This document shows, piece after piece, positions 21,559-58,500 of a stretch of 64,000 nucleotides of DNA (within the stretch, counting starts at the first letter, position 1; each line of letters begins with the position of its first letter). Source of the stretch: Gigantopelta aegis. Its lineage: Eukaryota > Mollusca > Gastropoda > Neomphalida > Peltospiridae. The translations under genes were made by a program, and so were the position numbers. The notes below the pieces were generated by a model, which had not been told where the DNA came from, made no database searches, and was given only the letters and a program-made list of their open reading frames with translations. The stretch covers positions 30,577,118 through 30,641,117 of the forward strand of contig NC_054701.1 of the NCBI RefSeq assembly GCF_016097555.1, given 5' to 3'.

Positions 21559-21808
21559 AGAGATAAATTACAACATATCCTAATCGATCAAATCGTGACT
21601 AATAGTCGTGCAGCCCGTGCTCGGTGGAAACAGATACACATAAATTACATAGTTCTGTTTTCCTTTCAGATAACTAGCCCGCGTCCGAGTACTTTCGCCT
21701 GTATCATAACATGACGCGAGCAACGCGATGTTATATTTATGCAAACGCGACCCACTGAGTTCAGTAGGCCTATCACATTCCAATTTTGTTTAAGATGAAG
21801 CAGGACCT

Positions 21809-22747
21809 ATGTTCATGCTCTCTGGAGTTACCCCCCCCCCCCACCTGGGGGGACTCATAACAATGTATGGAGTCTTGTTGGAGTACCGCGTCGCATACAC
21901 CGGGTCACGGGCAACCGTGACCTTGGTGTACGGTGACCCAGTAAAGAAACCACCTAGGAGGAGAAGGAGGAGGAAGACGGACGCGCCAGGGGCGGACCGG
22001 GGGAGGTCAAAACCGGTAGCTCAACTACCGGCGGCGACTTTTCCCGTTGTACCCCCCAAGCCCAAGTCAACACCAGTGAGGCCAGCTGTTCCAGCTCTGC
22101 AGGATCCAGTTGACGACTCGCCAGTGGCGGACACGGTCTTTAACCAGGCCCTGATGGAATCGCCACCCACAACTCCGACTACTTCAACCCCCGGGATTCC
22201 AGCGATGCCACCCCCACCCAGGAAGAGTGGCGCTGTAGAGTCCCAGGCCCGTCTTGTGGTCGTTGGAAAACGAAAGGCGATTGTGTCACCAGGCGACCAA
22301 CCAGCCAAGCCAAGTCCGCCGACACAACCGCCCCCACCTACTTCATCTCCAGCGAATGACCAGCCCTCTGAACAACCTTGGTCACTGCAGGCCGGCAAGC
22401 TACCAACACGCTACGCGAGGCTGGTGAAGACCAACATTGGGGATGTCCGTCAGCTCCTTTGTGAACCGAGCCCGGAGTCGTACCAACCTCTGCCACGAAC
22501 CGAAGGAGAGTTCTCGGTGCGTAGGATTACGATAAACGATGGGCGAGGGATCTGCCTTGCCGTCCGCCGGAAGGGACTTTTCCACCAAGGGATGCTTCTC
22601 GATGAAATGGACAACCCGACCATCCACCGCGTCATCAAGACCGTTGCCGGGGAAGATTACCGTCCAATCACCGAGAGCATCGCCAAGTCCGCAAACCGGT
22701 ACGCCCTCAACCATCTGGACTCGTCCCTATTCATCGCCTCTCCGTGA
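21809..22747 (+). CDS. Unrecognised GC-rich Pro/Arg-rich ORF (312 codons)
   Basis: Longest open frame in the window. Composition stands out: GC- and CpG-rich in AT-rich surroundings. From the N-terminus: a short GVTPPP start over a poly-C run (so the true start may be Met19 at 21863), an Arg/Lys run PPRRRRRRK at about 49-57, a long Pro/Ser/Thr-rich disordered middle (about 65-195), and a more structured C-terminal part (about 200-312) with RYARLVKTNIGDVRQLL, EGEFSVRRITINDGRG, MLLDEMDNPTIHRV and SANRYALNHLDSSLF. No catalytic motif, signal peptide or membrane segment is seen, and I do not recognise the family. No clear splice sites. The dispersed repeat at 23184-23275 lies 440 bp downstream, which suggests part of a mobile element, but a lineage-specific gene is possible. 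Confidence 0.45.
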   Translation: MFMLSGVTPPPHLGGLITMYGVLLEYRVAYTGSRATVTLVYGDPVKKPPRRRRRRKTDAPGADRGRSKPVAQLPAATFPVVPPKPKSTPVRPAVPALQDPVDDSPVADTVFNQALMESPPTTPTTSTPGIPAMPPPPRKSGAVESQARLVVVGKRKAIVSPGDQPAKPSPPTQPPPPTSSPANDQPSEQPWSLQAGKLPTRYARLVKTNIGDVRQLLCEPSPESYQPLPRTEGEFSVRRITINDGRGICLAVRRKGLFHQGMLLDEMDNPTIHRVIKTVAGEDYRPITESIAKSANRYALNHLDSSLFIASP

Positions 22748-31500: not shown

Positions 31501-34500
31501 TGTGTGATGGTAGTGAGACTTCTGTCACTGTCTAGACCAAGTGATGTAATAACCATATTTGAGAATGTGCTACGGTGGTGTTAAACTATTCTTTCTTTCC
31601 TAAATAATATATATTCGCCTTGGAACAAAAATAGAAAAATTAAAAGTAAAATGTTTTTGTCTCTTCTTCCTAATAGGCCATTCGGCTATTTCTCGTTCCA
31701 ACCTGTGCACCACGACTGGCATATCAAAGGCTGTGGTATGTGCTATCCTGTTTGTGGGATGGTGCATATAAAAGATCCCTTGCTACATTAGGAAAAATGT
31801 AGCGGGTTTTCTCTGATAATTACATGTCAGAATGACCAAATATTTGACATCCAATAGCCGATGATTAGTTAATCAATGTGCTCCAGTGATATCGTTAAAC
31901 AAAACAAACTTCTCCCAAGTATTTAATAAAAATTTGACTGTTGTGTTACCTATGAAGAATATTTTATCTTAATATTTTAGCTACCCACATTCGAGCAATG
32001 AGGACCATTCGAACATTAAAACCCTGGTGATGGCTTGTCTACAGCTGGAGGTAGGTGTTTAACAAACTTACAAGTCCTAAGCCTTCATTTTGTGAAATGT
32101 TTTTAAGATTTGTACAAGAAAAGATTTGTTTATCTCAGTTTGCGGGTTATTAGTCCCCGACCGTTCCAATCAGAGGAAACTATAGGATTTGTCTCAGTTC
32201 TTCTGTCCATCCGTCTGTCTGTCTATCCAACATATAATTTTTCAGACATTTTTTTCCAGCAGTGCCTCAAGATAAGGAGCTGATATTCTGTATATCATCT
32301 ACAGTTAACTTTTATGGCGATTTACTAATTTTTGACAGGGTTATTCCCCTTGAACTTAGGTGATACAAAACATTTGTTGGCACCGGCCTCGGTGACGCAG
32401 TGGTTAAGCCATCAGACTACAGGCTGGTAGGTACAGGGTTCGCAGCCCCTTACCGGCTCCAACCTTAAGGCAAGTTCTTAAGGGCTCAGTGGGTAGGTGT
32501 AAGACCACTACACCCTCTTCTCTTTCACTAACCACTAACCCACTGTCCAGACAGTCCAGATAGCTGAGGTGTGTGCCTAGGACAGCGTGCTTGAACCTTA
32601 AGTGGATATAAGCATGAATATAAGTTGAAATGAAAAAATGAATTTGTTGGGCTCATTAGGGGACGTAATTATATTGCTTTAGCAGTACTCTCAAAATGCT
32701 TGTTTCTTTTAGGCTTCATTAACTAATTTGCTGGTTTTTATATTTTCTATATTAATACAATTTAATTTTGTTGTAGAACTTTTATCAGTCTATTATTTAC
32801 CATTATTTACTTTAGTAAAATGTTTTATCAATCTATTCATTTCTACTATTACCAAACAAAATTAACCAGGAATATACTAACAAAATATTTTCTTCAAATA
32901 TTTTTCAGGGCAGTGAGGTCAGCAGTAACAAAAGCTTTATTCGGAATAAGGTTGCACAGATTGTCTCCCTTGCATTTATTGTCGACTACCCATACAGATG
33001 GTCTTCATTCTTCTCGGACGTCCTGTCGACCTTGAACCTCGGTCCCACTCGCCGTCGATATGTATCTGCGTATTCTCCTGGCTATCGACGAAGAAGTGGT
33101 GGATCGGGAAATTGTTCACTCTCCAGAAGTAGGTTTCTATTACAAGCAAAGTGGGACGTAGCCTAGAGGGAAAGCGCTCGCTTGATGCACATTCGGTTTC
33201 ATATCAGTCCCCGTCGGTGGGCCCTTTGGGCTATTTCTCGTTACAGCCAGTGCACAATGACTGGTATATCAAAGGCCATGGTATGTGCTGTCCTGTCTGG
33301 GATGGTGCATATAAAAGATCCCTAATGGAAAATATAGCGGGCTTCCTGTCTAAGACTTTTTGTCAAAATTACCAAATGTTTGACATCCAATAGCTGATGA
33401 TTAATAAATCAATGTGTTCTAGTGGTGTTATTAAACAAAACAACCCTTTGAATACAGATCAGTAAAAAAGTTTTAAAAAACCAACCAATGTGACACTAGT
33501 ATATATTTTAAAATCTTTTTTAACTTTTATTATGAAAATATGATTGTTAGGCATTGACTAACTGGACCCTATTTTACTGTACCATGATTCTATTTTACTG
33601 TCCCACCCCAACAGTGTATTTATATGTGTAGCATATTAATTCATTGTTTGTGATTTTGCTAGTGTTTGTTCTTTGTAGGAAAGCCGACGCAATACCCTTA
33701 TTAAGGATGCAATGAGAGATAACTGTGTGTCACAGCTGGCGGACTCTTGGCATCAGATCATGGTAAGTTCACCTCTTGTTAAATCTATGTAGTTTACCCT
33801 CTCATCCAGATCAGAGCTATTGTTTTACATTACACAAAGTATAGGGATTTTTTATACATCCGTCTTATGATGGGTCATATTATGTTATGGCGTTGTACGT
33901 CCATCCATATGTCTGTCTGTTCACTGTAACTTACTTTTCACTGTCTAGTGCACATAACAGCAAATCCTTGTCCGGACCATGTCTTGCATACTTGACCATC
34001 AAACCTCACATGTAGGAACAACCTGGAATGGCGGTGTGTCACATACTATTACTAGGTCACTGTGACCTACTTTTCACGGTCTTCTGCACATAACAGTAAA
34101 TCCTTGTCAGTACCATATCATGCATACAGATGCATACAGGACCATCAAACCTCACATGTAGGAAGAACTTGGTATGGTGGTGTGTCACATATAATTACTA
34201 GGTCTCTGTGATACAAATAAATCAGATAATTTGTCTATATTCTGAACATGATTTTCCGTCAAACTCTTGATGGGTGTGTCATGTACCTCACCGGTACTCT
34301 TGTTTTTATTAACAATGGGAATTGTCAACTTGATAAATGCACTGTAACCTATAGGTTACCAGGCCTGTATTTTATGGTAACCACAAACTATGCTTATTTT
34401 GATGCCTCTCTGTCCCCCAGAATATGAGTTACACACACATACATCTTTTTACTAGTGGTTTGAATGAATTAATAGTAGAACTTGAATATCTTAATCATTA

Positions 34501-37500
34501 TTAATAATAAGTCTAATGAAAATCCAGAAAATTATTACATTCAATTATTTTCTGTTGCTGTTGTCAGTTGCTGGAATGTTTTTGTTTTGTTTTAGACTCG
34601 CTATGAAACATCAAAACCAGAGATCACGTGTCTGTGTTTGGACGTTGTTGGGACGTTTGTGTCATGGATTGACATAAGTCTTATCGCCAATGACAAGTTT
34701 GTGTCACTTCTTCTGCGGTTCCTGTCGATGACACTGCTCCGAGAAAGTGCTTGTGATTGCATTCATGAGATTGTCAGCAAAGGCATGGATCCGGTGGCCA
34801 AGACAACCCTGGTGGAATCCTTCATGTCTGTTCTCGAAAATTCTGGAATTCTTAAACCACCAGAGGTAGGATACACAATCCATTTTACCTTATTTATTTA
34901 TATTTATAAATGTCAGTACAGGTAATGTGTCATGTATAGAGCCCAATTTTAAGTATTATTTAGAGGATAAATGATATCATTTCTTCAACATCAAAGTCAA
35001 AATAAAATGAGAGGATAACCCTAGTACTGTATTTTCTGATTTGCTGATGTAGATTGCTTATTTTACTAGCACAATAAAAACATAATATCAATAACATTTC
35101 TTTTTCATCTCTTAAACAGAACATTTCTTTGTTTTTGTTCCGTGTACATTAACCAATGAAAGATTTTTTAATTTACGTGGTTGAAGTGTTTCAGATTAAC
35201 TTAAGTTGTGTTGGTGACTGTTTCATTTGATATGCAATGAATTGTGGGTTTATCCTTTTGTTATTTTTAACTTCATGATAATTTGTTGAATTGCATGGAT
35301 GAGACCAACGTAATATATTGAAATTATCTATGAATTATTTGTTTGTAGGATGAAGAAGGAGATTTTCTTGCTAAGCTGTCCAAACTTATGAATGGAATCA
35401 GTCTTGCTCTGTTATCGGCATGGCAGAAGTAAGTTTAATATGAGTTGTCACTATATTTGTGTCTTGAAAATATCTGGCATGTATGGTAACAATACAGAGA
35501 TCCCATTTCTGTCAGTATTATCTTGTGATTCTCTGTAATAGTAAAGATTGGTTTATCCATCCAGCCAGCCAACTGACTATCCCATCCATCCTATACATCT
35601 CATCCCATCCCATCCCAGTCCAACTATCCATCCCCTCCGTCCATCCCATCCCGTTTGTCTGTCCATTCCATCCATCCATCTCATCCGTCCATCCCATACA
35701 TCATGTCCGTCCATCCCATCCTGTCTATCCGTCCATTCCATCCATCTCATCCGTCCATCCCATACATCCTGTCCATCCATCCCATCTCGTCTGTCCATCC
35801 ATCCCATACATACATCCCATCCCATCTATCCATCCATGCCATCTCATTCAATTCATCTAATCCCATCCAGTCCTATCCCATCCCATCCCATCCCATCCAT
35901 CTGTCCATCCATCCATCCATCCATCCAACCATTTATTTTTAAAAAGAAATGTTGAAGATGGGAATGGCTTTGCTTTTTGTGTTGTTTAATTTTCACCAGA
36001 TTTTCTTTTCTTTAAAATACCATTTGCTGCTATTCAGCAACAGCTGGATACCTATGTTAATATTCTAAACAAAAGGGTCATAATTACTGTTATATGTCTG
36101 ACATATACCAGTGTGCTGGAGTGTCATACAAACATTCCTTTCTTCTGAACTTTGATACAATGTTGGCAGTTTGACTGGTACTTTCAGACTGGTGAGAATC
36201 GGAGATGAACAGAATGCTAACATCACTCTTAATGCTCTGGAGGCTAAAATACCATACATCCTGCGTTTCCTTGGTGACGAAGACGACGATGTTTCTGGTG
36301 CCGTGGCGATATTTGCTCAGGAGTACATTAACAGTCTTAAACAAGTGTCTAGTCTGAGTCAGCAACAACGGGAAATTATTGAGGTAAGATTAGGCTGGTA
36401 TTTCAGTTTAACAATGGGAAATTTATGAGGTAAAGTTCAGTTGGTATTTCCATTAAACAATGAGAAATTATTACGGTAACATTATGCTGATATTTCCATA
36501 AAATTGGAAATTACTGAGGTAACATTTTGGTAAGCTTGTGACAGTTGAAAATTATTTCACGCTGGACAGAAACATGATATGGGCAGGACGTAGCCCAGTG
36601 GTAAAGTGCTTGCTTGATGTGCGGTCGGTGTGGGATCGATTCCCATAGGTGGGCCCATTGGGCTATTTCACATTCCAGCTAGTGCATCACGACTGGTATA
36701 TTAAAGGATGTGCTATGTTCTATCCTGTCTGTGGGATGGTGCATATAAAAGATCCGTTGCTGCTAATAAAAAAATGTAGTAGGTTTTCTCTCTAAGAATA
36801 TATGTCAAAATTACCAAATGTTTGACATCCAATAGCTGATGATTAATAAGTCAATGTGCTCTTGTGGTGTCGTTAAACAAAACAAACTTCTTTTTTTATA
36901 AACATGATTCGAAATGGAAGCTTGTTTAATATCCTCTAATTGCTAAACAGAAAAGGGTTTAATTTCTTTAACGACACCACTAGTTAATCTTCAGCTGTTG
37001 GATGTCAAACGTTTAATAAATCCGATTCACACAGTTTGTGGATGATTTTTTTTTCATACCGCGATGAACATAAAAGAAATAACAGACAGTCCTTAAATGT
37101 TGATGACCTACACCTCTAAATACATAGTTTGTGATTTCTTTTATACAGGGATTGCTGATTACAGTTGTTAAGAAAATGAAGTACGATGAATCCTACAACT
37201 TTGAGCAAGAGGTACACATAGTAATGATTACAGCTAAAACATCGGTTACGGTTGCTTTAATTTATGCATTTCAGTCTGTATAACAAATTTATATATTATA
37301 AATTGGATTAATATTGTGCCATGCATTTTTTGCACTGTAATGCATATTTGTGATGTGTAAATTTGTGAACAATCATTGGTCAGTGGTAAAGCGTTCGCTT
37401 GATGCACGGTCTGTCCAGGATCGATCACCATCGGAGGACCCATTGGGCTATTTCTCGTACCTGCCAGCGCACCACAACCGGTGTAACAAAGGCTGTGGTA

Positions 37501-40500
37501 TGTACTATCCTGTCTGCGGGATGGTGCATATAAAAGATCCCTTGCTTGTAATCGAAAAAAGAGTAACCCATGAAGTGGCAACAGCGAGTTTCCTCTCTCA
37601 ATATCTGTGTGGTCCTTAACCATATGTCTGACGCCATATAACTGTAAAATAAAATGAGTGCATCGTTAAATAAAACATTTCCTTCCTTCAGTCATTGGTA
37701 TGGACTGCGTATCTACAATGAAAATAATGTGATACGGTTGAGTATGAATGACATGAAATGTAAATGTATTTACGATACTTTTTGTGTAAATGCTATCTTG
37801 TCTATGGTAAATTTAAATATGCTAATATCAAAATAAAATTAATAGGTTTCTTTTTCACAACCATTTCTTTTACACATGACTATATCTCACATTCTACTTA
37901 AAAAGTATTCTATTCTTTTTCTGTTTTAATAGGGTGAAGATGAAGCCATGTTCCAGGACTACCGCAAACAGATGAAGACAATTTTCAACAACTTAGCACA
38001 GTTGGTCAGTTTATTAGTACAAACCAAGGCTTATTTACTAAACTATTACTTAATCATTTTTTAAAGTTCAGTTATAATAAGTATTATACCCTTTTTTCAT
38101 TGTCTTCAAAGACTGGTGAATATAATTTTACTAATCACTTGAAACAATTTTAGTTACAGTTTTAAATTAATATGACAGGACATTTTGATACTGGTTTTTG
38201 CGAGGAATATGGCTGCTTTGTTTTTAGATAAAATTTTAAAATACAGCATGTTAACCTGTTGGTCAACCTCATTGCAGGGATTCTAGATTATGGTAACCCC
38301 ACTCCCATGGCTAGTGATATTCAATGTTGGGCTAGTAAATAACTACTATTGTCATGCCCGATGGCTAATTAATTTGTTTGGGTCAAATGTTGCAGTTAAG
38401 TCTATTTTGTAAATATGAATATCCTGCCCCCACCCCAACCCCCCAATGTTAGTGTTTTTATGCTCTATCTCCCTCTTTAGGTGACATATCTGATTATTAC
38501 TATTACCGTATATTGCCGTGTATTAGCCGACTCCTGGGATAAGCCAACCTTTTAGTTTGACCCTAAATATCTAGTACAAAATCATCGGCCTTGTGTATAA
38601 GCCGAAGTCATCTTTTGTCCAGTTATATATTGTATCAATTTCAATAATACTGTCAACAAATAGACTTGTGCTTTTCTTGTTCATTATATTTGTTTTCCCT
38701 TTAATTATTACAAAAACAGTAATCGCAATCGCAGTCAATGCGGCAATGCTAACATCTACCATGCCGTGAAAAATCATTTAGAACTGATAAAGCATAACAA
38801 AAATAAATAATTCAAGCTGTAACAACATATCACTGAACACAAGTAATTAATTCATTCACTGGACAGCAAAAAGTAAAATCATTGAGGCATGTTTAATCTC
38901 CCACCACACACACACAGAAACAAAAGATCATGCAGCTGTTCACTGTATATGGTATGGTCATGTGACAATTGTGGGAGTAATTATCGTCCTGAAATTCCTG
39001 TTATGTTTTTTCAGTTGGTAATGTTAATAATGAGCTTAATTTATTTATGGCATTACTTTGCACCCTCCCAACAAAACAATAATATTAGAAATATGATACT
39101 TGTTTGAAGAAAAAAACCTGTTTTGTATCTGAAATTTGCGATATGAAAGACTGGTCCCAGCACAGGTCAAACAAAGATGGCGGACAGTTGGAAAGAATAT
39201 GTTTTTACCATTGAAATGACAATAAAACAAGTAATTTTTTATTATTATTCATCAAACTTATAACGCATTCAAGAACAAAAACCTGCATAATATTGCATGA
39301 TGGGGTGTTTTATTTATACTGTGCACAAATTATTGTTACATAATTTGTGAAAGGCTAAGGGTCTGATCAAAATTTATAAGTAGCGGTCGGGAGTATTTGC
39401 GATCGGAATTTTACACTCCCATATTGTTGCCTCCGTGTATAAGACGACTCTCTTCTTTTGGAAAGTGTTTCTAGACTTCAAAAGTCGGCTTATACATGGC
39501 AATATACGGTATTTAGTAAAATTGTATTAACTTAAAGTAAAGTAGGGCAAGTGAATTTTTAATCGTGGCTAGTACATTTTTTTAAATCACTGATCCCATG
39601 GCTAGTGGATTTTATAAAAACTCTAGAATCCCTGCTCATTGGATTTTGCAATAATAAAAATTAATATAATAGTAGATTAAATTTACTGGATGTAATTTTT
39701 CCTGGGCCTGTAGTTCAAGGTATAGAAGAGAAAAAAATGTGTGGTCATTATGCAGCTCTGACACTTCCCCTTCAATAATATAAACTTTGAATAATGAATC
39801 TCGCATATTTTAATTAATTGCAGGATTCACAGCTAATTATTCTGACAGTGCACAACTTTGCCACACAGATATTACCTCAGTGGGAAGCGGCCAGTATTGA
39901 AGATGTCGAAATGGCCGTTACACTTTTGTATATGTTAGGAGAAGCCGTTCCGGTAAGTGGTATAGTCAAACACGTCAGTTTAAAGAAACAGCCTTCATTT
40001 GTGTATTGAAAAAGGACCTTAGTGGCACATTAAACTTAATTGTTTTGGGGTGGTTTTCTTTAGTATACCTTTAAGATTTAATCCACGTATCTTGGTTCTA
40101 ACTTTTTTTGTAAAATTTAATAGGGATCTTAAAAAAGCTTAATATGTAAGATTTTATGGAATATAATATCTAGTAGGTTAGGTGAGGTCGAGGTTCCTTT
40201 ATTTACTCTTCAGAACATATTTTATTTATTGTATTTGATATTTCATTGTAGGCCTCTCATGGTCAACATTTCAGTGGCAATCTAGCCAAGACGTCAGCTC
40301 TGCAAGAGATGATGAGACTGGTAAGTACATATAGATAAAAATGAGGTCAGATTTAACTTTAATCAGATCCTGCATGACCAACAGTAGTGAAAGTCCCTCA
40401 ACAAAGGGGTAGGGGAATTAACAAAAAAACAATAGTGAATGTTTTTGAGATGGATAATTTTTCATAAGAATTCTTTTTTTGTAATTTAATTTTTTGTCTT

Positions 40501-43500
40501 CTGTTAATAAAATCAAAATATGACATACAGGTATTACTTATCGATGACTTCAACATTTACCTTTAGGTCAACTTTAAATTTTTGTGTTTAGCACCATTTT
40601 TTTACTTAATAAAACATGGTTTATATTTGCTTCTGTGAATGTTCATCACAGAGCAGTCAAAAAATATTTTAAATTTTAACTGATTTTTAAAAAATAAAAA
40701 TTTAATTTTGTGATCTTGTATTAATTTTTTTTTAATATATATATAGAACTAGATTAAACATGAATTTTACATTACAAATTCTTCTATAAAATTAATTTTA
40801 TTATTTAAACCTATATTGAGATCAATATCTATTATGCATCTTAGAGCGACACCAAATCAGTAAATGGTACACAAGAATTTTATTCTGTTGGATTCTTGTT
40901 CAAAGAGATGACAATGTTCTATGTAGTTATTTTTTTTACACAAATGGTTTTTTAATTTATTGATAAAAAAACAAAACAAGTCTTACATTAATAACCTTTT
41001 GAGATATTTATTATATGTTGATCTGTTCTAGCTGATTACCAGTCGTGTGAGTTCGAATGGTCACATGATCATCCAGCTTCAGTTCTTTGAAACAGTTGTC
41101 CGATACGACAAGTTCTTCAGCTGTGAACCAGAGCACATTCCTCATGTTGTTGTGAGTACACACTACAGTAGTTGGATATATAAACATGTGCCCTTGTGTA
41201 AACATTCAATTTTAAGAGAATTGTTAAACAAGACTGTGGAAACTTAATGATGTTGATCATACATCCTTTCATCCATATATGTGCCATTGTTTTAGGAGAC
41301 ATTCCTTTAAAACATAATTGAATAATTTTTGCAAGGAAATGATACCAACAGACATTCTGATAAATGGGGATTATTAATAATAAATAATAAACAAATTTCC
41401 TTTTTGTTTGTTAGATGGCATTTCTTGACGAGAGAGGTTTCCGACACAGATCACCAAAAGTGAGAAGTCGAACAGCTTACTTATTTTCCAGATTTGTTAA
41501 AGGATTGAAGTAAGTGTTTTAAGTCTTGTGAAACATGTTTCGTTTACCTGTCAAGCAACTATTTCTTTACCACCTAGTTTATTCTTTATTAGAGAGGTTT
41601 CATTATCCCACCCCGGAACTGTTCCATTGAGAAATAATCAACTTTCATGGTCTACTGGTTTCTTTTCTTTTAGTTGGCTTACAGGAATCTGACTCTGGAT
41701 TTCGGTTTGTCTCGGCATTTTATTATGAAGGACAGGACGTAGCTCAGTGGTACAGCGCTAACTTGATGTGCAGTCGGTCTGGGATCAATCCCTGTCGGTG
41801 GGCCCATTGGGCTGTTTCTCGTTCCAGCCAGTGCACCACAACTGGTATAACAAAGGCTGGGGTATGTGCTATCCTATCTTTGGGATGGTGCATATAAAAG
41901 ATCCTTTGCTGCTAATCATAAAGAGTAGCCCATGAAGTGACGACAGCAGGTTAACTCTCTCAATATAAAAAAATAATCCAAAGCCAAAACCATTAAACTG
42001 ATCACCCTGTTGTTGCAGATCTCACATGCAGAACTACCTGGAAGACATTCTCAAACAGATGCAGGACCTCCTCGTGTTGAATACACCCGACAATGGGTAC
42101 CAGCAGTTCCTGTCGGACGATGACCAGCTCTTCATGTACGAGACGGCTGGCATTCTCATCACATCCAGTGGCCTGTCATCAGAGGTAAGACTTATTAGAT
42201 CACTCTTCATGTACGATACGGCCGGTATTCTCATCACATCCAGTGGCCTGTCATCAGAGGTAAGACTATTGGATGACTCTTCATGTACTAGACGGCTGGC
42301 ATTCTCATCACATCCAGTGGCCTGTCATCAGAGGTAAGACTTATTAGATCACTCTTCATGTACGATACGGCCGGTATTCTCATCACATCCAGTGGCCTGT
42401 CATCAGAGGTAAGACTTATTAGATGACTCTTCATGTACGAGACGGCTGGCATTCTCATCACATCCAGTGACCTGTCATCAGCAGTGCTCTACAATGTGAG
42501 TAAAATACTCGCCATGGCGACTAAAAACATTCCCTGGCGTCTAAAATATAAAATCACATTCGCCAGTTGGCGACTGTCCAGTAATGTTACTTTAATCTGT
42601 AAACAAAACTGGACATCAGAAAACACAGTGGACCAGTAGCAATGTATATTCCATAAAACATATTTTTTATCGGTAGTTTGTTGGGAAAATAAAAGTTTGA
42701 GACAAGTTAATCGGACTGAATAACGGTGACGTTAAGGGAGGTAATACTTCATTATGATGTTATCTCCCTTAACTTGAATTTCAAACATTTGGAAATAATT
42801 CGGCCCCAGTTCAGTTTTGGACCAAGAGCCAGGTTTTAGAATGAGATTGTTGATTCACTGTGTGTCTTTACGTGTCTGTTTCAAACTCAAACGTTAATTA
42901 TTTTAAATGTCGACTTATATACTACTCAAAAGAATTTAAGGGTCAAAAATGTATAACCAAATAAGTTTCAGAGTGTATTAGATTGATGATGTAAACTACA
43001 CCAAATTTTTTATTTATTGTTCCATATTTACCAAAAACCACAAATAAACATCACTGTATACAAGAAAGTCACATGACATGCTGTCAAAGTTGAAGGTTGT
43101 CAAACATGGATTTTACACATTAAAACATTCGTTTAATAGTGTGTGAATCCACCCCTGGTGCGAATACACTCAACACATCGTTGCCTCATGCTGTTGATCG
43201 GACGTCTGAAGAACTCTTGGGGAATGGCCTGCCACTCTGCCATAAGAAGTTGACCCAGATCATGAAGGTTGGCCGGAGGGGCATGGTTATCCCGAACTCT
43301 CCTGCCTAATTCGTCCCAGGCGTGCTCTATTGGGGCCAAGTCAGGCGAATATGCTGGCCAATCCATCCTGGCGATACCTTGTTGTCTGAGAAAGTCCGTT
43401 ACCACCCTAGCGCGGTGGGGTCTGGCATTGTCATCCTGCAGATCTGCCCCGCCGCCAATCTGCTGAAGGCCTGGGAGAACCAAGGGCCGGAAATCTCATT

Positions 43501-46500
43501 CAGATAGCGGATTCCATTCAGATTGCCATCCACCACATAGAGGGGGTGTCCTGTGGTGGATAGAGATGCCGTCCCACACCATGACGCTGCCACCACCGAA
43601 CCGGTGACGTTGTCTAACGTTAACGTCAGCGAAGCGCTCCCCAGGACGTCTGTAGACACGAACCCGACCGTCGTTGAACTGGAGACTAAACCTGGACTCA
43701 TCAGTGAACATCACTCGACCCCACTGAACACGTTGCCACCGCAGATGAAGCATGCACCAGTGACGTCTGGCCGTTCTGTGACGTGGTAGGAGTGGTGGTC
43801 GAACAGCCTGGTGACGGCAGCGTAGATTATTGGCTCTCAGACGATTGCGTATTGTTTGATCAGACACTCGAGTTCCAGTCGCAGTCCGCAGATTGTCACG
43901 TAATCGGCGTGCAGTGTTTGTGCGTTGACGTAGAGCCATATTGGTGATGTAGCGGTCCTCTCTATTTGTAGTGCTTCGGGGTCTTTCCGAACGTGGACGA
44001 TTTCGAACAGAATTCGTTGCTTGGTACTGTTGCCACAGTCGGCCAACGACACTCTGACTGACACCAAGTCTCAGAGCAACATTTCTTTGCGTATTGCCAT
44101 CCTGAAGCCAAGCAATAGCCCTTCCTCGATCTTCGATAGTCAGTTGACGTCGTACCATTGTCGAATTTGGAGTGTGCACCGTACACGAGTGCAAGCTCCA
44201 ATTATATGGAAATTCAGCATTGGGAACATGGAATACACATGCAAAGCGTGCAAATGAAGCGCTTTGTGAAAAAGCAAGTTATGGGCACTTAGCAGACCTT
44301 TCGCTTTCGCCCTAATTTACGTGCAAATGTAAGCATGTTTTCGCCATTAGAACTAGTTGACAGTGTCAATGACAGTGGATTTTAATTCATTTATGGGTTG
44401 CTTAGACCCACTTTCGTCAAAATGGAACAATACCATGCGTGACATTATGGTGTAGCTAATATAACTGACATTCAGAAAATAATGTCGAAAATATCGTCTG
44501 ACCCTTAAATTCTTTTGAGTAGTATATATGCGTTATACTGGGCTCCAATTGTGTTGTGCTTATCGTGATAACGGGTCCTCCCACAATAATGACGTGTCCC
44601 GTCATGAATGTTGTTTTAATCACGTTGGAAGTCGTGTTCATCAGTGGAGGATGAAAACATGTTTATATTTTCATGACGCGACTTTAGATGGCTTTAAAGA
44701 TACAACTATTTACAAAACAGTATTTACAGATTGCCAAGGCAGTATTTGATGAAAATAAATATTATTTAAACCAAAAGTAAGGTAGCCGATTGGTATCTAC
44801 TAGTAACATGTTGAAGCCTGGTAATTATTATCACAATGCTTTTATTTAACTTTTAATGAGTACTACAATTTAAATGCATATCTTAGCAGTGCCATTAAAA
44901 TAGTAATTCGCTTAATTTCATTTAATAAAATTATTGGGTACGGAATTTGATAATGATAGTTAATAATCCTTCAGTTTTAGTGGAACCGGACACAAACAGT
45001 AACTTATAATTAGTATTTAACAACTAGGAATTACCCCTTCACAAGTTCATTCGAATGTGGTCTAATAACAATTTCGGCATTAGTAATGTGCCGTAAAATG
45101 GCAGATGAATCGATTTAATTACAAGAATATATTAGCTGGCTACTAAATATAAGTGGCTGGCGACTAAAATATTATACTTTACTGGCCAGGGAAGAGTAAA
45201 TTTGAACTTGCTTTGTAGAGCACTGATTAGAGATAAGACTTATTAGATGACTCTTCATGTACGAGACGGCTGGCATTCTCATCACATCCAGTGGTCTGTC
45301 ATCAGAGGTAAGACTTATTAGATCACTCTTCATGTACGAGACGGCTGCCATTCTCATCACATCCAGTGGCCTGTCATCAGAGGTAAGTTTTATTAGAAAG
45401 AAAGAAAGAAAAATGTTTTATTTAACGACACACTCAACACATTTTATTTATGGTTATATGGTGTCAGACATATGGTTGAGGACCACACAGATATTGTGAC
45501 AGGGAGCGCTGTCGCCACTTCATGGGCTACTATTTTCGATTAGCAGCAAGGGATCTTTTATATCCACCATCCTACAGACAGGGTAGTACATACCATGGCC
45601 TTTGATATACCAGTCAAGAAATAGCCCAATGAGCCCACCGATGGGGATCGATCCCATACCAACCGCGTATTGAGTGAGCGCTTTACCACTGGGCTATGTC
45701 CCGCCCCAAGTTTTATTAGATTGCTTTCATGCCCAAATCATAAATGTATGCTGAAACCTAAGAAATATTCCCCAGTCTGAAGGATATCATAAAAATATAA
45801 TTTAGGATATTTATATAGCATGCTTCAGTAAGGGCTGTTAAAGAATTAATCATATATGTGGCTGTGGTATGTGCTGTCTGGGAAAGTGCATAAAAAAGAT
45901 CTCTAGCTGCTAACTAAAAAATGTAGCACATTTTCTCCTCACAACTATATATCAGAATTATCAAAAATTTTACATTCTATAGCTGATTATTAATTAAATC
46001 TATGTGCTCTAGTGGTGTCTTTTAACGCACACAAAAAACTTTTTTTTAATTATATGGAGGAGGTGAGAGGCAATCTTTTTTATATACCCACAACCTACAA
46101 AGTAAAATTTTATATAAGCCATGTATTCATGGAGAGAAAACATTACGCCAAACCACCATCCTTCATCCCCATGACATCAGTTATAGATCAGCTCGAATTA
46201 AGTTTCATTATATATCAAATGTTATTTTATGTTCCATGCCTTTCTAGATGAAGCATTTATTTTTGAGAGTAATATTCTTTTCATTTTAGAAAAAGCAACT
46301 GCTCATGAGAAACCTGTTGGCACCAATAGCAACCAAGTACGAAGGTCTTCTCGGAAAGTTTTTCCAGGAAACGAATGAACAGAGGCAGCTGGCTTATGCA
46401 CGCTGCATTACTAGCGCTATGGCACTTGCAAGGTTTGTGCTCATCACTAATTTAGCAATAGTGCATTGCTATGTTTCTTAAACATATGGACAACATCAAG

Positions 46501-49500
46501 AACCATGTTTTGCGGTAACAATATATTAGATACTAAATATCTGTAGTGAGGGATTTTTCCCATCTCAACCAATGCGCCATGACTGGTATGTCAAAGGCCA
46601 TGATTTGTGCCGACTTTTGGGAAAATGCAAGTAAAAGGTCCCTCATTGTTAATGGGAAAATGCAGCATTTGTTCTGAGAAGACTACATGTCGCAGTTGCC
46701 AAATGTTGGACATCCATTAGCTGATAATTAATCAGTGGGGTATAGTTGTGTCATTCTATTAGACATTCCTTTCCTTTTCATGTCTCGCACTAATTATAGC
46801 TTCTTTTAATTATAACTGGTTAAAATTGTAAGTCTGTTAACGTTTTCTTGTCTGGACCATATATTGCATACAGATGCATACAGGACCATCAAACCTCACA
46901 TGTAGGAACAACTTGGGATGGTGATGTGTCAGTACTATTACTAGGTCACTGTAGTTTATCCTACTAAAAATTATATTTGATTTTTTTGTTTTGTTAATTT
47001 ATCTCTACTACTTTTGTATGTATGTAGGAAAAAGTAAATAATGAAAATGTAATTGCTTTTTAATTAACTACTTCATGTAGATTATAAAATCACATCTACT
47101 TTGTTTTCATTCCTGCCAGGGGCGAGACGTAGCTCAGTGGTACAGCACTCGCTTGATGCGCTGTCAGTCTGGGATCGATCTCCGTCGCTAGGTCAATTGG
47201 ACTATTTCTCGTTTCAGCCTGTGCACCACGACTGGTATATCAAAGGCCGTGGTATGTGCTATTCTGTCTGTGGGATAGTGCATATAAAAGATCCATTGCT
47301 GCTAATCGAAAAGAGTAGCCCATGAATTGGCGACATCGGGTTTCCTCTCTCAATATCTGTGTGGTCCTTAACCATATGTCCGAAGCCATATAACTGTAAA
47401 TAAAATGTGTTGAGTGTGTCATTAAATAAAACATTTCTTTCCTTCCTTCAGCCGTGCCAGTAAGTGTTTTTCAAGCCAGCAGACGATGAAGCAGAGCGGG
47501 TGTATCGAGGTGTTCACCGAGCTGCTCAAGCTGTTCCTGGTGGCGCTCAACGCCCCCGCTCACCGCCAGATGCTGCACACGGGGGTGAGGCAGTACCTCC
47601 ACCGCATGGTCGTGTGTCTGGAGAAGGAGATCCTGCCCTTCATCCCCATCATCCTGGAGAACCTCCTCAAACAGCCCGAGGTCAAGGAGCTGTACGACTT
47701 CATACCGCTCCTCAACCAGCTCACCATGAAGTTCAAGGTAAATTACTGTCACGTTCATACTTCATACCGCTCCTCAACCAGCTCACCATGAAGTTCAAGG
47801 TAAAGTACTGTCACGTTCATACTTCATACCGCTCCTCAACCAGCTCACCATGAAGTTCAAGTAAAGTACTGTCACTTTCATACCACTCCTCAACAAGCTC
47901 ACCATGAAGTTCTAGGTAAAGTACTGTCGAGTTCATACTTCATAGCTCTCCTGAACCAGCTCACCATATGAAGTTCACGGTAAAGTAATGTTGAGTTCAT
48001 ACTTCATACTGCTCCTCAACCAGCTCACCATGAAGTTCAAGGTAAAGTACTGTCCGGTTCATACTTCATACCACTCCTCAACCAGCTCACCATGAAGTTC
48101 AAGATAAAGTACTGTCGAGTTCATACTTCATACTGCTCCTTAGTTATGGTATTGTAACGGAAACTTTCGCCTATGTCTCGGTTACCGTTACGGGATATGG
48201 ATGTCATTTCTTCATAGCAGAGCCGCCACAGATCACAGCGGCACGTTTCCCGCCAATATTATCGCACATTTTGTTCAAATAAAGTTGTAGTTGTATACAT
48301 AGTTAAGTTTCTTCACTACTGACACGCATCAGGAGCCATAAAGATGTCTTATGTATTGGTAAGCCCTTAAAATTCGCAATGTACAATGTCATCTGGCTAT
48401 TCTTATCCCTCGACTGCCATGTTGGTTGTAAGTAGTTTCCTCCGCTATCTTCTTCGGAGCACCGCAGAAACTGCATCGAGTAATATATATATATATATTT
48501 TTTTTTTTTACATACACAAAACTATTTATTAACTGTAGGTATTTTAAAACCATATACTGTCCGAGATGAGCTCATGAGGAATATTTGGCAATCACTAATA
48601 GTAATACAGTGTTAATAATAACAACAATAAATTGATTAATTCAAGTCTAAGACTACACTACTAGCTCAAAGTTAACATTTTATTTACAGTTCTTCTTCTG
48701 AGATCTGAGATAACCCACTACAATAATGCACAAAATACACACCAATATTAAAATGACATTCTACCACTACACTATTAGCAAACAGCTAGCACTGTAACTT
48801 AGTGTAAGTACTTTAAAAATGACTACTGTCGACGACGGTCACTTTTCACACCCTTATTTTGGCTTTGCACACAATAAATATCCTACAGTAATGTCACTTG
48901 AAATCTATATTTCGTAGATAGTACATTTTTTTTTAATCACAAGATTTTCTTCAGAGTGAAGTGCATTAGTAATGTTAAAAAACCCCAAAAAAACCCATTC
49001 TATAGCAATTTTGCTTTGAAATGTTTCCAGCGTTCTTAAAACGGAAACGTCATTCACCCAGGTTATTGTTCTTGTAAAGACGTCAGGCAAATTGTTTTTT
49101 TTTTAAAATAAATAAATCTATATTATTGCAATGCTTCGCCACATTAAAATAAAAACTGGTCTACTTACCTTGACCTCTGTCAAAAAAGTTCCGAGAGCAA
49201 ACAATGCAGTTTAAATGTGGGTATGTTTTTATTTTTTATAATTTTAGACGAACTATTAAGTTTAAGTTTTAAAAGATAAAAGAAATAAAAAAAATACATT
49301 TCGTCAAATATATCATAAAACTAAAATTACTCTAGTAGATAGTATATATTTTCATGTATGGATAGGCTATTTCACATTCTCACGAACTTCTCGTATTATC
49401 CGTCATGGCTGCCGAAGAACGCTTTTAGTCTTGATAATTGTTAATCTGCATTGTATTAATTATATTTGCAACAACAATTAATTTAATATATATGAACTAT

Positions 49501-52500
49501 ATCGAGTAAGTGTTTCCAACAAAGTGTGAATGTTTTTTTACACAACACTGAAGTTTGTTTTTGCTACACATGGGGTATATGCCTCATCTCGTAGCGATGT
49601 CAGCGCTACGTTATCGTATCTAACTGCTCCTCAACCAGCTCACCATGAAGTTCAAGGTAAAGTACTGTTGAGTTCATACTTCATACTGCTCCTCAACCAG
49701 CTCACCATGAAGTTCAAGGTAAAGTAATGTCGAGTTCATACTTCATACTGCTCCTCAACCAGCTCACCATGAAGTTCACGGTAAAGTACTGTCCGGTTCA
49801 TACTTCATATTGCTCCTCAACCAGCTCTCCATGAAGTTCAAGGTAAAGTAATGTCGAGTTCATACTTCATACTGCTCCTCAACCAGCTCACCATGAAGTT
49901 CAAGGTAAAGTAATGTCGAGTTCATACTTCATACTGCTCCTCAACCAGCTCTCCATGAAGTTCATGGTAAAGTACTGTCGAGTTCATACTTCATACCGCT
50001 CCTCAACCAGCTCACCATGAAGTTCACGGTAAAGTACTGTCCGGTTCATACTTCATACCGCTCCTCAACCAGCTCACTATGAAGTTCAAGGTAAAGTACT
50101 GTCGAGTTCATACTTCATACTGCTCCTCAACCAGCTCACCATGAAGTTCAAGGTAAAGTACTGTCGAGTTCATACTTCATAGCTCTCGTCAACCAGCTCA
50201 CCATGAAGTTCAAGGTAAAGTGCTGTCAAGTTCATACTTCATACCACTTCTCAACCAGCTCACCATGAAGTTCAAGGTAAAGTACTGTCGAGTTCATACT
50301 TCATACTGCTCCTCAACCAGCTCACCATGAAGTTCAAGGTAAAGTAATGTTGAGTTCATACTTTATACTGCTCCTCAACCAGCTCACCATGAAGTTCAAG
50401 GTAAAGTACTGTCCGGATCATACTTCATACTGCTCCTCAACCAGCTCACCATGAAGTTCACGGTAAAGTACTGTCCGGTTCATACTTCATACTGCTCCTC
50501 AACCAGCTCACCATGAAGTTCAAGGTAAAGTACTGTCGGGTTCATACTTCATACTGTTCCTCAACCAGCTCACCATGAAGTTCAAGGTAAAGTAATGTCG
50601 AGTTCATACTTCATACTGCTGCTCAACCAGCTCACCATGAAGTTCAAGGTAAAGTACTGTCTGGTTCATACTTCATACTGCTCCTCAACCAGCTCTCCAT
50701 GAAGTTCAAGGTAAAGTAATGTCGAGTTCATACTTCATACTGCTCCTCAACCAGCTCACCATGAAGTTCATGGTAAAGTACTGTCTGGTTCATACTTCAT
50801 ACCGCTCCTCAACCAGCTCACCATGAAGTTCACGGTAAAGTACTGTCCGGTTCATACTTCATACCGCTCCTCAACCAGCTCACCATGAAGTTCAAGGTAA
50901 AGTACTGTCGAGTTCATACTTCATACTGCTCCTCAACCAGCTCACCATGAAGTTCAAGGTGAAGTACTGTCGAGTTCATACTTCATACCACTTCTCAACC
51001 AGCTCACCATGAAGTTCAAGGTAAAGTACTGTCGAGTTCATACTTCATACTGCTCCTCAACCAGCTCACCATGAAGTTCAAGGTGAAGTACTGTCGAGTT
51101 CATACTTCATACCACTTCTCAACCAGCTCACCATGAAGTTCAAGGTAAAGTACTGTCGAGTTCATACTTCATACCGCTCCTCAACCAGCTCACAATGAAG
51201 TTCAAGGTAAAGTACTGTCATGTTCATACTTCATACTGCTCCTCAACCAGCTCACCATGAAGTTCAAGGTGAAGTACTGTCGAGTTCATACTTCATACCA
51301 CTTCTCAACCAGCTCACCATGAAGTTCAAGGTAAAGTACTGTCGAGTTCATACTTCATACCGCTCCTCAACCAGCTCACCATGAAGTTCAAGGTAAAGTA
51401 CTGTCGAGTTCATACTTCATACTGCTCCTCAACCAGCTCACCATGAAGTTCAAGGTAAAGTACTGTCGAGTTCATACTTCATACCGCTCCTCAACCAGCT
51501 CACCATGAAGTTCAAGGTAAAGTACTGTCGAGTTCATACTTCATACTGCTCCTCAACCAGCTCACCATGAAGTTCAAGGTGAAGTACTGTCAAGTTCATA
51601 CTTCATACCACTTCTCAACCAGCTCACCATGAAGTTCAAGGTAAAGTACTGTCGAGTTCATACTTCATACTGCTCCTCAACCAGCTCACAATGAAGTTCA
51701 AGGTAAAGTACTGTCATGTTCATACTTCATACTGCTCCTCAACCAGCTCACCATGAAGTTCAAGGTGAAGTACTGTCGAGTTCATACTTCATACTGCTCC
51801 TCAACCAGCTCACCATGAAGTTCAAGGTGAAGTACTGTCGAGTTCATACTTCATACCACTTCTCAACCAGCTCACCATGAAGTTCAAGGTAAAGTACTGT
51901 CGAGTTCATACTTCATACTGCTCCTCAACCAGCTCACCATGAAGTTCAAGGTAAAGTACTGTCGAGTTCATACTTCATACTGCTCCTCAACCAGCTCACC
52001 ATGAAGTTCAAGGTAAAGTACTGTCATGTTCATACTTCATACTGCTCCTCAACCAGCTCACCATGAAGTTCAAGGTAAAGTACTGTCGAGTTCATACTTC
52101 ATACTGCTTCTCAACCAGCTCACAATGAAGTTCAAAGTACTGTTATGTTCAAGGTAAATTATTCTAGGTTAACAAGTCGATATGGTTTGATGCGAGCAAT
52201 TGCTCCTGCTCGCGTGTACTCGCGCAAAAGTATTTCCACTTGGGCCAAAAACCACTCGCCTCGTCACATGCCTATATCATTAATATATTTACTAAAAATT
52301 ACTGTGAATTGATACACTGGGAACATTTGCTCTCCTACATAATTTCAGGAGAGCAGTTTCTTGCTCAACATCGATTTTCAAACCATGAGCACTGGGTAAG
52401 TTATTGACAAGTTCCAGGTAAAGTACTATCAAGTTCAAGGTTAAGTACTATCAAGTTCAAGGTTAAGTACTATCAAGTTCAAGGGAAAATAATATCAAAT

Positions 52501-55500
52501 GCAAAGTAAAGTACTATCAAGTTCACATTAAAGTATTTTGAAGTTAAAAGGTAAAGTAGTATCAAATTGAAGGTAAAATATGAACATGTGTTGCAATAAA
52601 TCATCTGTAGCTGGCCAGCAAAGCACGAAAAACAATAGATTTCTTTTATTATATAGAATTATTATTGGTATAGTGTCTGCCAGTTAAAGTTAATTTTGTG
52701 GTGGTGTATATGACTGTTCTTTCAATACATGTGTACTAGTGTATGGTTGGGTTTTTTGGTTGTCTCTGATCTTAGTAAATTATTTTTCTATTTAATGTGG
52801 CTAATTTTACATGGAGTTTATTTTTCTATTTGTTTCAGAGTGCAATAACCCCATTTTTAAGTGAGATTTTCATGCCGTTTGTGAGTACAATATTCCAGAC
52901 ATTAGCAATACCATCTGACGAACGTGACCAAGTGGCTGCCACAGAGAAAAAGCTACTACAGCGAGGATATTACCAATTTCTGTCGACTATCATTAGCAAT
53001 GATGCCATAGATGTTTTGAAAGTTCAGGGTATGCAGAGTTTATCCAGTTATCTTACTAGATTAATTTAATAATATTCTCCAAACCAAAGATAAGGCTACG
53101 TTGCTTTTTCTATTAAATTTTGAAATTTTGAAATTCTTATTTTGACAGGTTTTGGAATTTTAAAGTTGATCAGTCTCACTTTTCTGAAAAATATTAGTAA
53201 ATTACATAATTAAATTTAACAAGGAGTAAATTAGGACCATTACTTTGCAGTACAGAAATTCATAGTACAAAGGTATGCAATATATTAAGCATTGACATTT
53301 TATTTTCAGATGTTCAGAATTTGAACGAGGTTTTGATGTCTGTTGTACAAGGGGCTGTTGAGTGTCCAGACCCCACTAGTCAAAAAACATGCTTCAGCAT
53401 TCTGAGGAAAATGATTGACATCTGGGGTAAGTCAGAGCTTGTCAAGTTGCATTTCTGATGTATACTGAGAGAAAGAAATAAGGCAGGGTTCGTAGTGGTC
53501 TTTAAATTCCTTGAATGTCTTTGAATTTGAAAAAAATCTTTTTAGGTCTTTGAAAGTCTTTCATTTGTAATAAAAGTCTTAAAAAGTCTTTAAATTCTCA
53601 CAAATCATAGCCAAAGCAATGATGATATCTTTTACAGCTGCATGCACTTGATATTTTGTAGTTACAAGGTTTAACCTGAAAACCCCCCAACAATTTGTTG
53701 CCATGGACAGCAATGTAATCGAACTGATTTGGTATTTTTATCGCATTCTATTGTCTTTGACCGCTGTGTAAAAGTCTTTGAAAGTCTTTGAAAATGGTAG
53801 GTAAAAGTCTTTGAATTTGTTTGGTCTTTAAGGCTGTGAACCCTGTAAGGGAACACTTGGTATTGTAGAGCAAATTTCAGTCACTATTGGCATCGTAATG
53901 TTGGTATAAAGTACAAAGATATAAATGTGGCACTGAATGTCACTAATGTGAGACTGAATGTCGCTAATGTGGGACTGAATGTCACTAATGTGAGACTGAA
54001 TGTCGCTAATGTGAGATTTAATGTTGGTAACATGGTTAACTTCTTGTTTTCACATACATGATGAGGGTTTTTGTTGGGAGTCACCCTCTCTTGTTAATGT
54101 TGGTGTGATCTATTATTTCAGTATATATGTATACAAACAAAAATTAATTAAAACAAAAAATTGAGCAAGAACACATGTTTTTGTTCTTGTTTTTGTTCAA
54201 TTAATTTTTAAAGAATTTATTTCTGTTTGTATACATTTTAGTTTTTTCCCCCACTGATCTCAAAAGCTCTAAATATGAGTTATGCTAAGAGGCTGACGAT
54301 TTTATGAAACCTTCATATGGATTATTACCTGAGGGTATTTAAAATGAAAAAACTAATATACTCTTGGCATTTCTTCTGAATTGTTTTGTAACTGACAAGA
54401 ACCTGCTTCAATAATCTCATGGCAAAGTTATTTTTCATGAAGTCAGACATTGTTCTGTTTCTTTAATTAGGAGGCACAAACAACATCATGGGATTTCTGG
54501 ATTTCATGTATAAGAACGTCATTCCAGCATGCTTTCTGGCTCCTCTCAAACCCACGTTTGACCTGTCGGATGCACAGACAACTCTGGTGAGTTTGAGTTG
54601 AAAATAAAACATGCATAATAATATGGTGGAGTATCTGTGATAGGTTAGAGAATTGATCTTCCTCATTATCTTATTTACATTAGTTCTCCCTACTGGATAT
54701 AAGAAGAAGTTTGTTTTGTTTAATGACACCACTGGAGCACATTGATTAATTAATCATCGGCTATTGTATGTCAAACATTTGGTAATTCTGACATGTAGTC
54801 ATCAGAGAAAACCTGCTACATTTTTCTTAATGCAGTAAGGGATCTTTTATATGCACCATCCCACAGACAGGATAGCACATACCATGGCCTTTGATATACC
54901 AGTCATGGTGCACTGGCTGGAACGAGAAATAGCCCAATGGGTCCACCGACAGGGATCGATCCTAAACTGACTGCACATCAAGCAAGCACTTTACCACTGG
55001 GCTACGTCCCGTCCATAATTTATTATTATTATTTACCTATTTTTCTATTAATATGTGGTACTTATTTGTTCTTTTCTAAAAAACAAACCCAAAAAAAATA
55101 TAAAAAATTCCATAACTGTTTGAAGATTCTTAATTTTAGTTTGCTTTTTATTTCAGGTTTTAGGTGAAAGTGCTATGTGCTTAAAAACTATTCTTGACAA
55201 AAGAGTAAGTATATAATATGGCTATGTATGTTTTAGTACATTGTATTACATGGGTATGTATGTATATAACAGACCTATATGTATTAGTTTATTTAGTAAC
55301 TATAGTTATTGCAGGTAAAATTTTATTAACTCTTTAATTCTATCTGCAAACAAAATTTGGATAAAGCATGCAGTTGATGCAGAAATGTTTGTGTTAACTT
55401 CCATACCAATTAAAAAATAAAAGCAGGAACATGTTAACTGACTAATAAAATTATTAGTAATGCTGTTGAATCCCGTTGGCTCAAACCCTGTCGGTGATAT

Positions 55501-58500
55501 TGATATTTATGTTACCAGAATTAAAAATATTATAAAGCAAGGCTTCTAGAATTTTTATAAAATTCACTAGCCATGGAATCAGTAATTTAAGAAATTTTCT
55601 AGACACAATTAAAAATCCACTAGCCCTACTTTACTTTAAGTAAATAAACTTTTACTAATTAATAGTAATAATCGGATATGTCACCTAAAGAGGGAAATGG
55701 AGCTAAAACACACTAAGATTGGGGGTTTGTGTGGGTGGGAGTGGGTTACAGGATATTCATATTGAAAAAATAAGACTAAAATGCAGCATTTGACAACTTT
55801 TGTTTTTACTAGCCGTTGGGCATGGTAATATTAGTTATTTACTAGCCCAACACTGAATATCACTAGCCATGGCAGTGGGGCTACCATAATCTAGAAATCC
55901 TGTCGGGCATCACAATAGTAGTTATTTACTAGCCCAACACTGAATATACTAGCCATGGCAGTGGGGCTACCATAATCTAGAAGTCCTGTCGGGCATGGCA
56001 ATAGTAGTTATTTACTAGCCCAACATTGAATATCACTAGCCATGGCAGTGGGGCTACCATAATCTAGAAGTCCTGTCGGGCATGGCAATAGTAGTTATTT
56101 ACTAGCCCAACACTGAATATCACTAGCCATGGCAGTGGGGCTACCATAATCTAGAAGTCCTGTCAGGCATCACAATAGTAGTTATTTACTAGCCCAACAC
56201 TGAATATCACTAGCCATGGCAGTGGGGCTACCATAATCTAGAAGTCCTGTCGGGCATGGCAATAGTAGTTATTTACTAGCCCAACACTGAATATCACTAG
56301 CCATGGCAGTGGGGCTACCATAATCTAGAAGTCCTGTCGGGCATGGCAATAGTAGTTATTTACTAGCCCAACACTGAATATCACTAGCCATGGCAGTGGG
56401 GCTACCATAATCTAGAAGTCCTGTCGGGCATGGCAATAGTAGTTATTTACTAGCCCAACACTGAATATCACTAGCCATGGCAGTGGGGCTACCATAATCT
56501 AGAAGTCCTGTCGGGCATGGCAATAGTAGTTATTTACTAGCCCAACACTGAATATCACTAGCCATGGCAGTGGGGCTACCATAATTTAGAAGTCCTGTCG
56601 GGCATCACAATAGTAGTTATTTACTAGCCCAACACTGAATATCACTAGCCATGGCAGTGGGGCTACCATAATCTAGAAGTCCTGTCGGGCATCACAATAG
56701 TAGTTATTTACTAGCCCAACACTGAATATCACTAGCCATGGCAGTGGGGCTACCATAATCTAGAAGTCCTGTCGGGCATCACAATAGTAGTTATTTACTA
56801 GCCCAACACTGAATATCACTAGCCATGGCAGTGGGGCTACCATAATCTAGAAGTCCTGTCGGGCATCACAATAGTAGTTATTTACTAGCCCAACACTGAA
56901 TATCACTAGCCATGGCAGTGGGGCTACCATAATCTAGAAGTCCTGTCGGGCATCACAATAGTAGTTATTTACTAGCCCAACACTGAATATCACTAGCCAT
57001 GGCAGTGGGGCTACCATAATCTAGAAGTCCTGTCGGGCATCACAATAGTAGTTATTTACTAGCCCAACACTGAATATCACTAGCCATGGCAGTGGGGCTA
57101 CCATAATCTAGAAGTCCTGTCGGGCATGGTAATATTAGTTATTTACTAGCCCAACATTGAACATCACTAGCCATGGCAGTGGGGCTACCATAATCTAGAA
57201 GTCCTGTATAAAGACCAGCACTCTTAGAGCTCTATAATGTGTTTGAAAAATATTACTTTAGTTTTCAATATTTGTTTATTCAAGGGTGAAGAAGTGATTG
57301 CCTATCTTCAGGGTGAATATTTACCAACACTCAACTTACCCCCACAACTCACACAGGTAAGTTTTCTTTGTCATTAATATTATAAATTTTAAAATATGAT
57401 ATGCTAAATATATTTTTAAAATGTACTATTATTATCAAGCAAAATCATTACTTTTAATTACCAAATTAACTTTAACATTCATACTTTCTTAATAATTGTT
57501 TTATGCTGGATGTGCTTATGTCAAGTTTTTATTACTAAAATATTTCTTTTAGTCTGTGAGTTTACGTAATTTAAAATCAATTGTTGCGAGATTTACACTT
57601 CGACATGTTAAAATTAAACATGGAAATTGTTGATATAGTATATCTTGTATCTTTCAGGAGTTTTGCCAAGCCATGAAGACGGATCAAAAGACTTTTAGAA
57701 ATTATATGAAAGTGAGTACTGTACGCAGCATGTTTAACAGTTAATCAGACTTACACAAGCCCTGCAATTGACCACGGCAGTCGGCAATGTCGTGGAGAAC
57801 TGTCACATTAAATCACCCATGGTGGTGTAACATAATGAAATGACCTGTTTAACTTCACTTTTTGTTTTTGTGTTACCGTTATTGAACGTCAAGGAGGCAA
57901 CATATATGTTTTCAGGGCTTGCTTGAACTTAACTACGGCACCGACGGCAATTGCCGTCGTTGAGATATAAATTGCAGTAGGTAGAGAGCATCACCAATAG
58001 CACAAAAGTGTCGTCGGTAAAGCTGCTCAACAGTGTCAAAATATATACATCTGGTGTACATTATCTGCCAGTATTTAACATTTGAACATTTGAAATATGT
58101 CTTCATACAGCAAAATAGCCTCACAGTCTTGTTTTATTTGCTGCAAATGTCACTTTTTTAACATTGCCATAGACGGGCTCAAAATTGTCGTCGGTGGGCT
58201 GTTTCACCCATTGCAATTCATTTAAACATTGCTGTGGGAGACATTCTTAAATTCGAGCCCTGTGTTTTATCTTTCAGGGGTAGGAATTCTCCTCGGATCA
58301 GCTGTTTTCCTTTCATGGAACATTGCGTTTCCTTGCATTTTAATCATCCTTTTGTCCAAAAAGTGTCAGATGGCACAGATTTTAACCTAGGATTTCAAGA
58401 ATTTCCGGGACCCCTCTAGATTTCCTCTTTTTTACAGTTCACCAATTCCCACCCCTGATCTTTCCACAAAAAGATCAACATCTCTGTTTAGAATAAACAA

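Follow-up and report, generated by a model that had tools for sequence, protein, structure and literature searches.

Minisatellite arrays spanning splice donors in an exportin-T gene of the gastropod Gigantopelta aegis

The exportin-T gene and its donor-spanning arrays

The DNA analysed here (the window) is a stretch of 64,000 nucleotides from the gastropod Gigantopelta aegis (GCF_016097555.1, contig NC_054701.1, positions 30,577,118 to 30,641,117 of the forward strand). It contains an exportin-T gene in which three minisatellites, with units of 62, 75 and 46 bp, each start within the end of an exon and run across its splice donor into the intron. A preliminary description of this DNA had named the gene as XPOT and reported the 62-bp array; the 75-bp and 46-bp arrays, which are built in the same way and lie in the same gene, were missing from it. 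The features are listed below by position in the window, together with the GC content at third codon positions (GC3) of the exons concerned.

28947..57711, plus strand: the 22 mapped exons of exportin-T (x1 to x23), located by their open frames and splice sites and with the help of bait fragments
36188..36383, plus strand: exon x8, which seeds the 46-bp array from its end (GC3 0.41)
36364..36526, plus strand: decayed 46-bp array, 3.6 copies, 74% matches, unit of 20 nt exon end and 26 nt intron
42019..42184, plus strand: exon x15, which seeds the 75-bp array from its end (GC3 0.73)
42128..42481, plus strand: 75-bp array, about 4.7 copies, unit of 57 nt exon end and 18 nt intron
42482..45225, unstranded: insertion of 2,744 bp splitting the 75-bp array, its ends forming a perfect inverted repeat of 13 bp (CAGTGCTCTACAA)
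45226..45397, plus strand: 75-bp array resumed after the insertion, about 2.3 copies
47452..47737, plus strand: exon x17, which seeds the 62-bp array from its end (GC3 0.90)
47697..48140, plus strand: upstream part of the 62-bp array, about 7 units, unit 1 being the genuine exon end and donor
47738..47743, plus strand: the real x17 splice donor, AAG followed by GTAAAT
47789..47791, plus strand: first in-frame stop on read-through of the x17 donor, ahead of the second donor
48141..49622, unstranded: insertion of 1,482 bp within the 62-bp array, with a flanking duplication and imperfect inverted ends
49623..52139, plus strand: downstream part of the 62-bp array, about 40.6 units
52408..52577, plus strand: decayed 22-bp array with a donor core, 7.7 copies, 79% matches

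The exon numbers run from x1 to x23, with x3 reserved for a small exon without a mapped position; this exon was looked for between x2 and x4 during mapping and was not found. The 19 exons from x5 to x23, when spliced at their first donors, give a stop-free frame of 790 codons. The 790-aa product matched the Pfam families Exportin-T (9.8e-125) and Xpo1 (9.5e-20), and also the solved structure of exportin-T, 3ibv (2.3e-92); the Exportin-T and 3ibv matches bear out the proposed identity of the gene. In x4 (32909-33128) one frame runs up to LNLGP and the next one starts from VDMYLRI; this apparent shift of frame by one base, which may be a sequence error, makes the integrity of the gene copy uncertain at x4. 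Of the 21 introns measured, those carrying the 62-bp and 75-bp arrays are the longest (5,101 and 4,105 nt), in a comparison whose x2 entry includes the unfound exon. An Rfam scan and a tRNA scan returned no matches.

The 62-bp array does start from the genuine end of its exon, with the real donor at 47738, as had been described. Tandem Repeats Finder reported the 62-bp period with 7.3 copies at 87% matches (47697-48140) and 40.6 copies at 94% matches (49623-52139). Wrap-around alignment gave 49 rows; the insertion cuts one unit into halves that take up two rows, so that there are 48 units (47697-52139). This total, which includes the genuine first unit and the truncated last one, agrees with the earlier count of about 48 copies made by eye. 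The array is not uninterrupted: the 1,482-bp insertion, absent from the earlier description, is bordered on each side by ACTGCTCCT, a 9-bp flanking duplication. The length of the unit stood, and its proposed division into about 45 nt of exon and 17 nt of intron did not; counted from 47697, the unit comprises 41 nt of the exon end and 21 nt of the intron start. It was also too strong to say that nearly all units keep AAG-GTAAAG. Within 47690-52160 the exact 9-mer AAGGTAAAG occurs only 30 times, and the looser motif GGT[A/G]AAG 44 times; AAGGTAAAT is found twice there, as the real x17 donor and as the decayed last copy. The 22-bp array further downstream is probably derived from the 62-bp array. 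The 2,744-bp insertion that splits the 75-bp array contains a minus-strand open frame of 260 aa (43496-44278), which by eye resembles a transposase of the Tc1/mariner type.

All 22 donors were compared by local alignment with their downstream introns, and 22 acceptor regions with their upstream introns, using 60 base shuffles per donor or acceptor for significance. Strong copies were found at three donors only, with scores of 47, 140 and 125 where the shuffled maxima were 31, 29 and 29. The x21 donor was barely above its shuffles (25 against 24, z score 3.6) and was not counted. None of the 22 acceptors had strong local copies upstream; the highest scores, at x18 (28 against a shuffled maximum of 26, z 3.8) and x17 (23 against 22, z 2.9), were again barely above the shuffles, and acceptor arrays were rejected. 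After manual merging of the Tandem Repeats Finder output, nine minisatellite loci with a period of at least 15, the 22-bp one included, were counted as starting in the gene. When nine such loci were placed at random in the gene, at least three donor-spanning ones arose with P 0.00115, in a test devised after the pattern had been seen; 0.23 donor-spanning and 0.23 acceptor-spanning minisatellites are expected.

Variation and turnover within the 62-bp array

Divergence of the units from their consensus declines along the array, from 0.063 (rows 1-9) through 0.040 (rows 10-29) to 0.030 (rows 30-49), and the 45 complete units comprise 28 distinct sequences. This gradient and diversity fit unequal exchange or gene conversion acting on an array whose exon side is stable. 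A higher-order repeat was rejected, for identity by lag is flat among the last 24 complete units (0.946 to 0.964).

The same diversity bears on whether the copies might be an artefact of assembly. Long tandem arrays are often misassembled, and the apparent frame change in x4 shows that small assembly errors are possible; the exact number of units may be wrong. Yet the units hold many private and shared differences, two of the arrays are interrupted by insertions that have repeats at their flanks or termini, and the gene has three arrays that are unrelated to one another, which leaves an artefact hardly credible.

Per-column variation is 0.042 in the donor 9-mer, 0.028 in the other exon columns and 0.065 in the other intron columns, and 68% of the 9-column windows have a mean variation equal to or below that of the donor window. 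Selection on the donor copies was therefore rejected, since their window is no less variable than others. The preliminary description had suggested that binding of U1 or retention of the transcript might be affected; the analysis of variation gave no sign of selection on either. With no special conservation in the donor columns, and with the stop before the second x17 donor, nothing points to a function of the copies. It is also very improbable that the array is a regulatory device, in which many intronic U1 sites would hold the U1 small nuclear ribonucleoprotein and delay splicing or protect against premature polyadenylation. The 46 GGT[A/G]AA[G/T] sites within one intron would suit such a device; against it stand the ordinary variability of the donor columns, the weaker U1 pairing of most copies (5 or 6 positions versus 7 in the real donor), and the insertions that broke the 62-bp and the 75-bp arrays.

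Relation to known systems and use of the later donors

The three arrays are most probably 'mirages', that is, minisatellites formed by tandem duplication over the 3' end of an exon and its donor, and usually harmless. Slippage, template switching or unequal exchange would have given rise to a tandem duplication of a short segment over the exon end and donor. Because the first copy would keep the exon and donor intact, further copies would fall into the intron and be tolerated; unequal exchange or conversion might later expand and homogenise the array, and the intron would grow longer with it. Splicing of the message would proceed from the first donor, as the intact reading frame suggests. Leakage to a later 62-bp donor would lead into the stop codon present in the sequence, presumably followed by decay of the message, and no job is assigned to the later donors. 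If so, the exportin-T arrays show harmless growth of introns at their 5' ends, which happened three times independently in a single housekeeping gene. They also provide a natural test of how the splicing machinery selects one donor among dozens that share their exon context.

No described system of this kind had been known to the preliminary description, a claim that does not hold, since lancelet mirages, a human CBS repeat and the IFI6 minisatellite have already been described. The reported lancelet mirages include those of Adh3 and the globins BflGb6 and BflGb9, with units of 10 to 160 bp (PMC3087553, PMC3902484), and those of PGBD5 and troponin C (PMC3902484). According to PMC3087553, they are found at both exon boundaries, and their boundary units escape homogenisation. 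Mirages are further characterised by haplotypes that differ in length and by somatic instability; the exportin-T sequence represents one haplotype. The exportin-T arrays are alike in spanning the exon boundary and in a turnover that leaves out the boundary units. Three traits by which mirages are recognised are seen in exportin-T: the unit lies over the exon-intron boundary in three arrays across donors; the AG/GT signal recurs in many repeats, with the 46 sites in 47690-52160 including the real donor, and is likewise carried by the 75-bp and 46-bp copies; and concerted evolution spares the boundary units, clearly so at the exon side, the far end being one decayed truncated unit. By structure, the arrays would thus belong to the mirage kind. 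Compared with the lancelet cases as described there, exportin-T has three arrays in one gene, all at donors, with up to 48 units and two of them split by insertions.

The human CBS 31-bp variable number tandem repeat, c.1444_1467+7(16_21), is reported with 16 to 21 repeats (PMC2630376). Its tandem unit also lies over a donor and, according to its name, is made up of 24 exonic and 7 intronic nucleotides; unlike exportin-T, it is described as a single array with a shorter unit, variable among people. In the IFI6 (6-16) minisatellite, which similarly consists of tandem units holding donors, downstream units are reported to serve as splice donors (PMC4526556), whereas such use in the 62-bp array of exportin-T would lead to a stop codon. 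Intron gain through tandem duplication of AGGT-containing segments has been proposed (PMC4974935; discussed in PMC3087553), and boundary repeats in relation to new introns are discussed in PMC2812944. The duplicated segment with AG|GT is common to that process as outlined there and to exportin-T. Intron gain of this type would be recognised by an intron that related genes lack and that the duplicated copies bound; in exportin-T, by contrast, an existing intron appears to have been lengthened. A search with a few wordings in a limited collection of papers brought up neither an exportin-T example nor a paper describing three such arrays in a single gene. What is unusual in exportin-T is the presence of three arrays in one gene, the copy number, and the position of the large arrays at the two exons with the highest GC3.

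The preliminary description expected later 62-bp donors to be damaging through a shift of frame. They would be damaging, because the stop at 47789-47791 precedes the second donor. Past x8 there is likewise a stop at 36426, ahead of the second donor. The 75-bp array differs from both: its second donor (exon end 42259) adds 75 nt in frame and free of stops, and the first read-through stop is at 42335. The third donor lies 149 nt on and is out of frame.

The donors were scored, a check named beforehand, with a weight matrix built from the 19 other donors. The real x17 donor scored 7.2, its commonest copy 3.1 and other variants 1.3 to 2.3, and the x8 copies scored 2.0 to 4.9 versus 10.0 for the real x8 donor. 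Mini-exons within the 62-bp units were rejected: the AG before CTCACC resembles an acceptor, but 45 sites of this type scored -7.6 to -2.7, whereas the 22 real acceptors, on which the acceptor model was itself trained, scored 8.7 to 19.0.

Several observations weigh against harmless arrays with silent donor copies. The last 62-bp copy, AAGGTAAAT, scores 7.2, equal to the real x17 donor. The 75-bp copies score 10.0 like the real x15 donor, and the last of them 12.7, so that donor copies of this array may be used. The real x1 donor, at 3.0, is on a level with the 62-bp copies (3.1), and a low score therefore does not rule out the use of a donor. Use of the first donors is itself deduced from the reading frame. 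Finally, all three arrays lie at donors, whereas lancelet mirages are reported at both boundaries; three of three would occur by chance in 1 of 8 cases, and this placement does not prove a bias toward donors.

Some of these points favour alternative splicing from the extra donors, as in IFI6, most plausibly at the second x15 donor, which would add 25 codons. Five intact copies of the x15 donor lie downstream, three of them before the 2,744-bp insertion. The stops ahead of the second donor in the 62-bp and 46-bp arrays and the broken frame at the third x15 donor speak against it; moreover, the Adh3 and globin mirages are reported to leave regular splicing undisturbed (PMC3087553). Such use of the extra donors is considered improbable.

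Base composition and other repeats

Among the 19 exons compared, x17 (0.90) and x15 (0.73) have the highest GC3, followed by x10 (0.62, 24 codons); the pooled value of the 17 other exons is 0.44. When the repeated part is excluded, the values stay much the same (0.89 for x17 and 0.76 for x15). Both exons occupy the top two of the 19 ranks with P 0.006, calculated post hoc. A shared cause of high GC3 and arrays, such as a conversion hotspot, is possible and unproven. In its wider form, exon-donor mirages would mark narrow intragenic hotspots of recombination or conversion, where one process raises GC at synonymous sites and also seeds and feeds the donor array; this is a tentative and rather unlikely proposal. 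The GC3 of x8, which carries the old small array, is ordinary and does not fit the link. In x15, GC3 shows no rise toward the array (0.72, 0.78, 0.70). GC is also high in the 300-nt stretches that precede x15 and x17, a measure confounded by local copies of a dispersed repeat. If the hotspot proposal were true, exon GC3 would predict the sites of mirages, and these would be a general feature of animal genes; if the GC3 link held in other genes, mirages would be markers of intragenic gene conversion.

The dispersed repeat is short, has a tRNA-like head and occurs across the window (for example at 36720, 41869, 45559, 47259 and 54848). With motifs chosen by eye, 12 approximate matches to its core and 5 to its head were counted, with copies near all three arrays. 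Two further tandem arrays were seen. One, with an 87-bp unit (55827-57207, 15.9 copies, 98% matches), ends shortly before x22 and does not span that exon; the other, with a 133-bp unit (5733-6523, 6 copies, 96% matches), lies outside the mapped gene. The window also contains a proline-rich open frame of 317 aa at 21794-22747.
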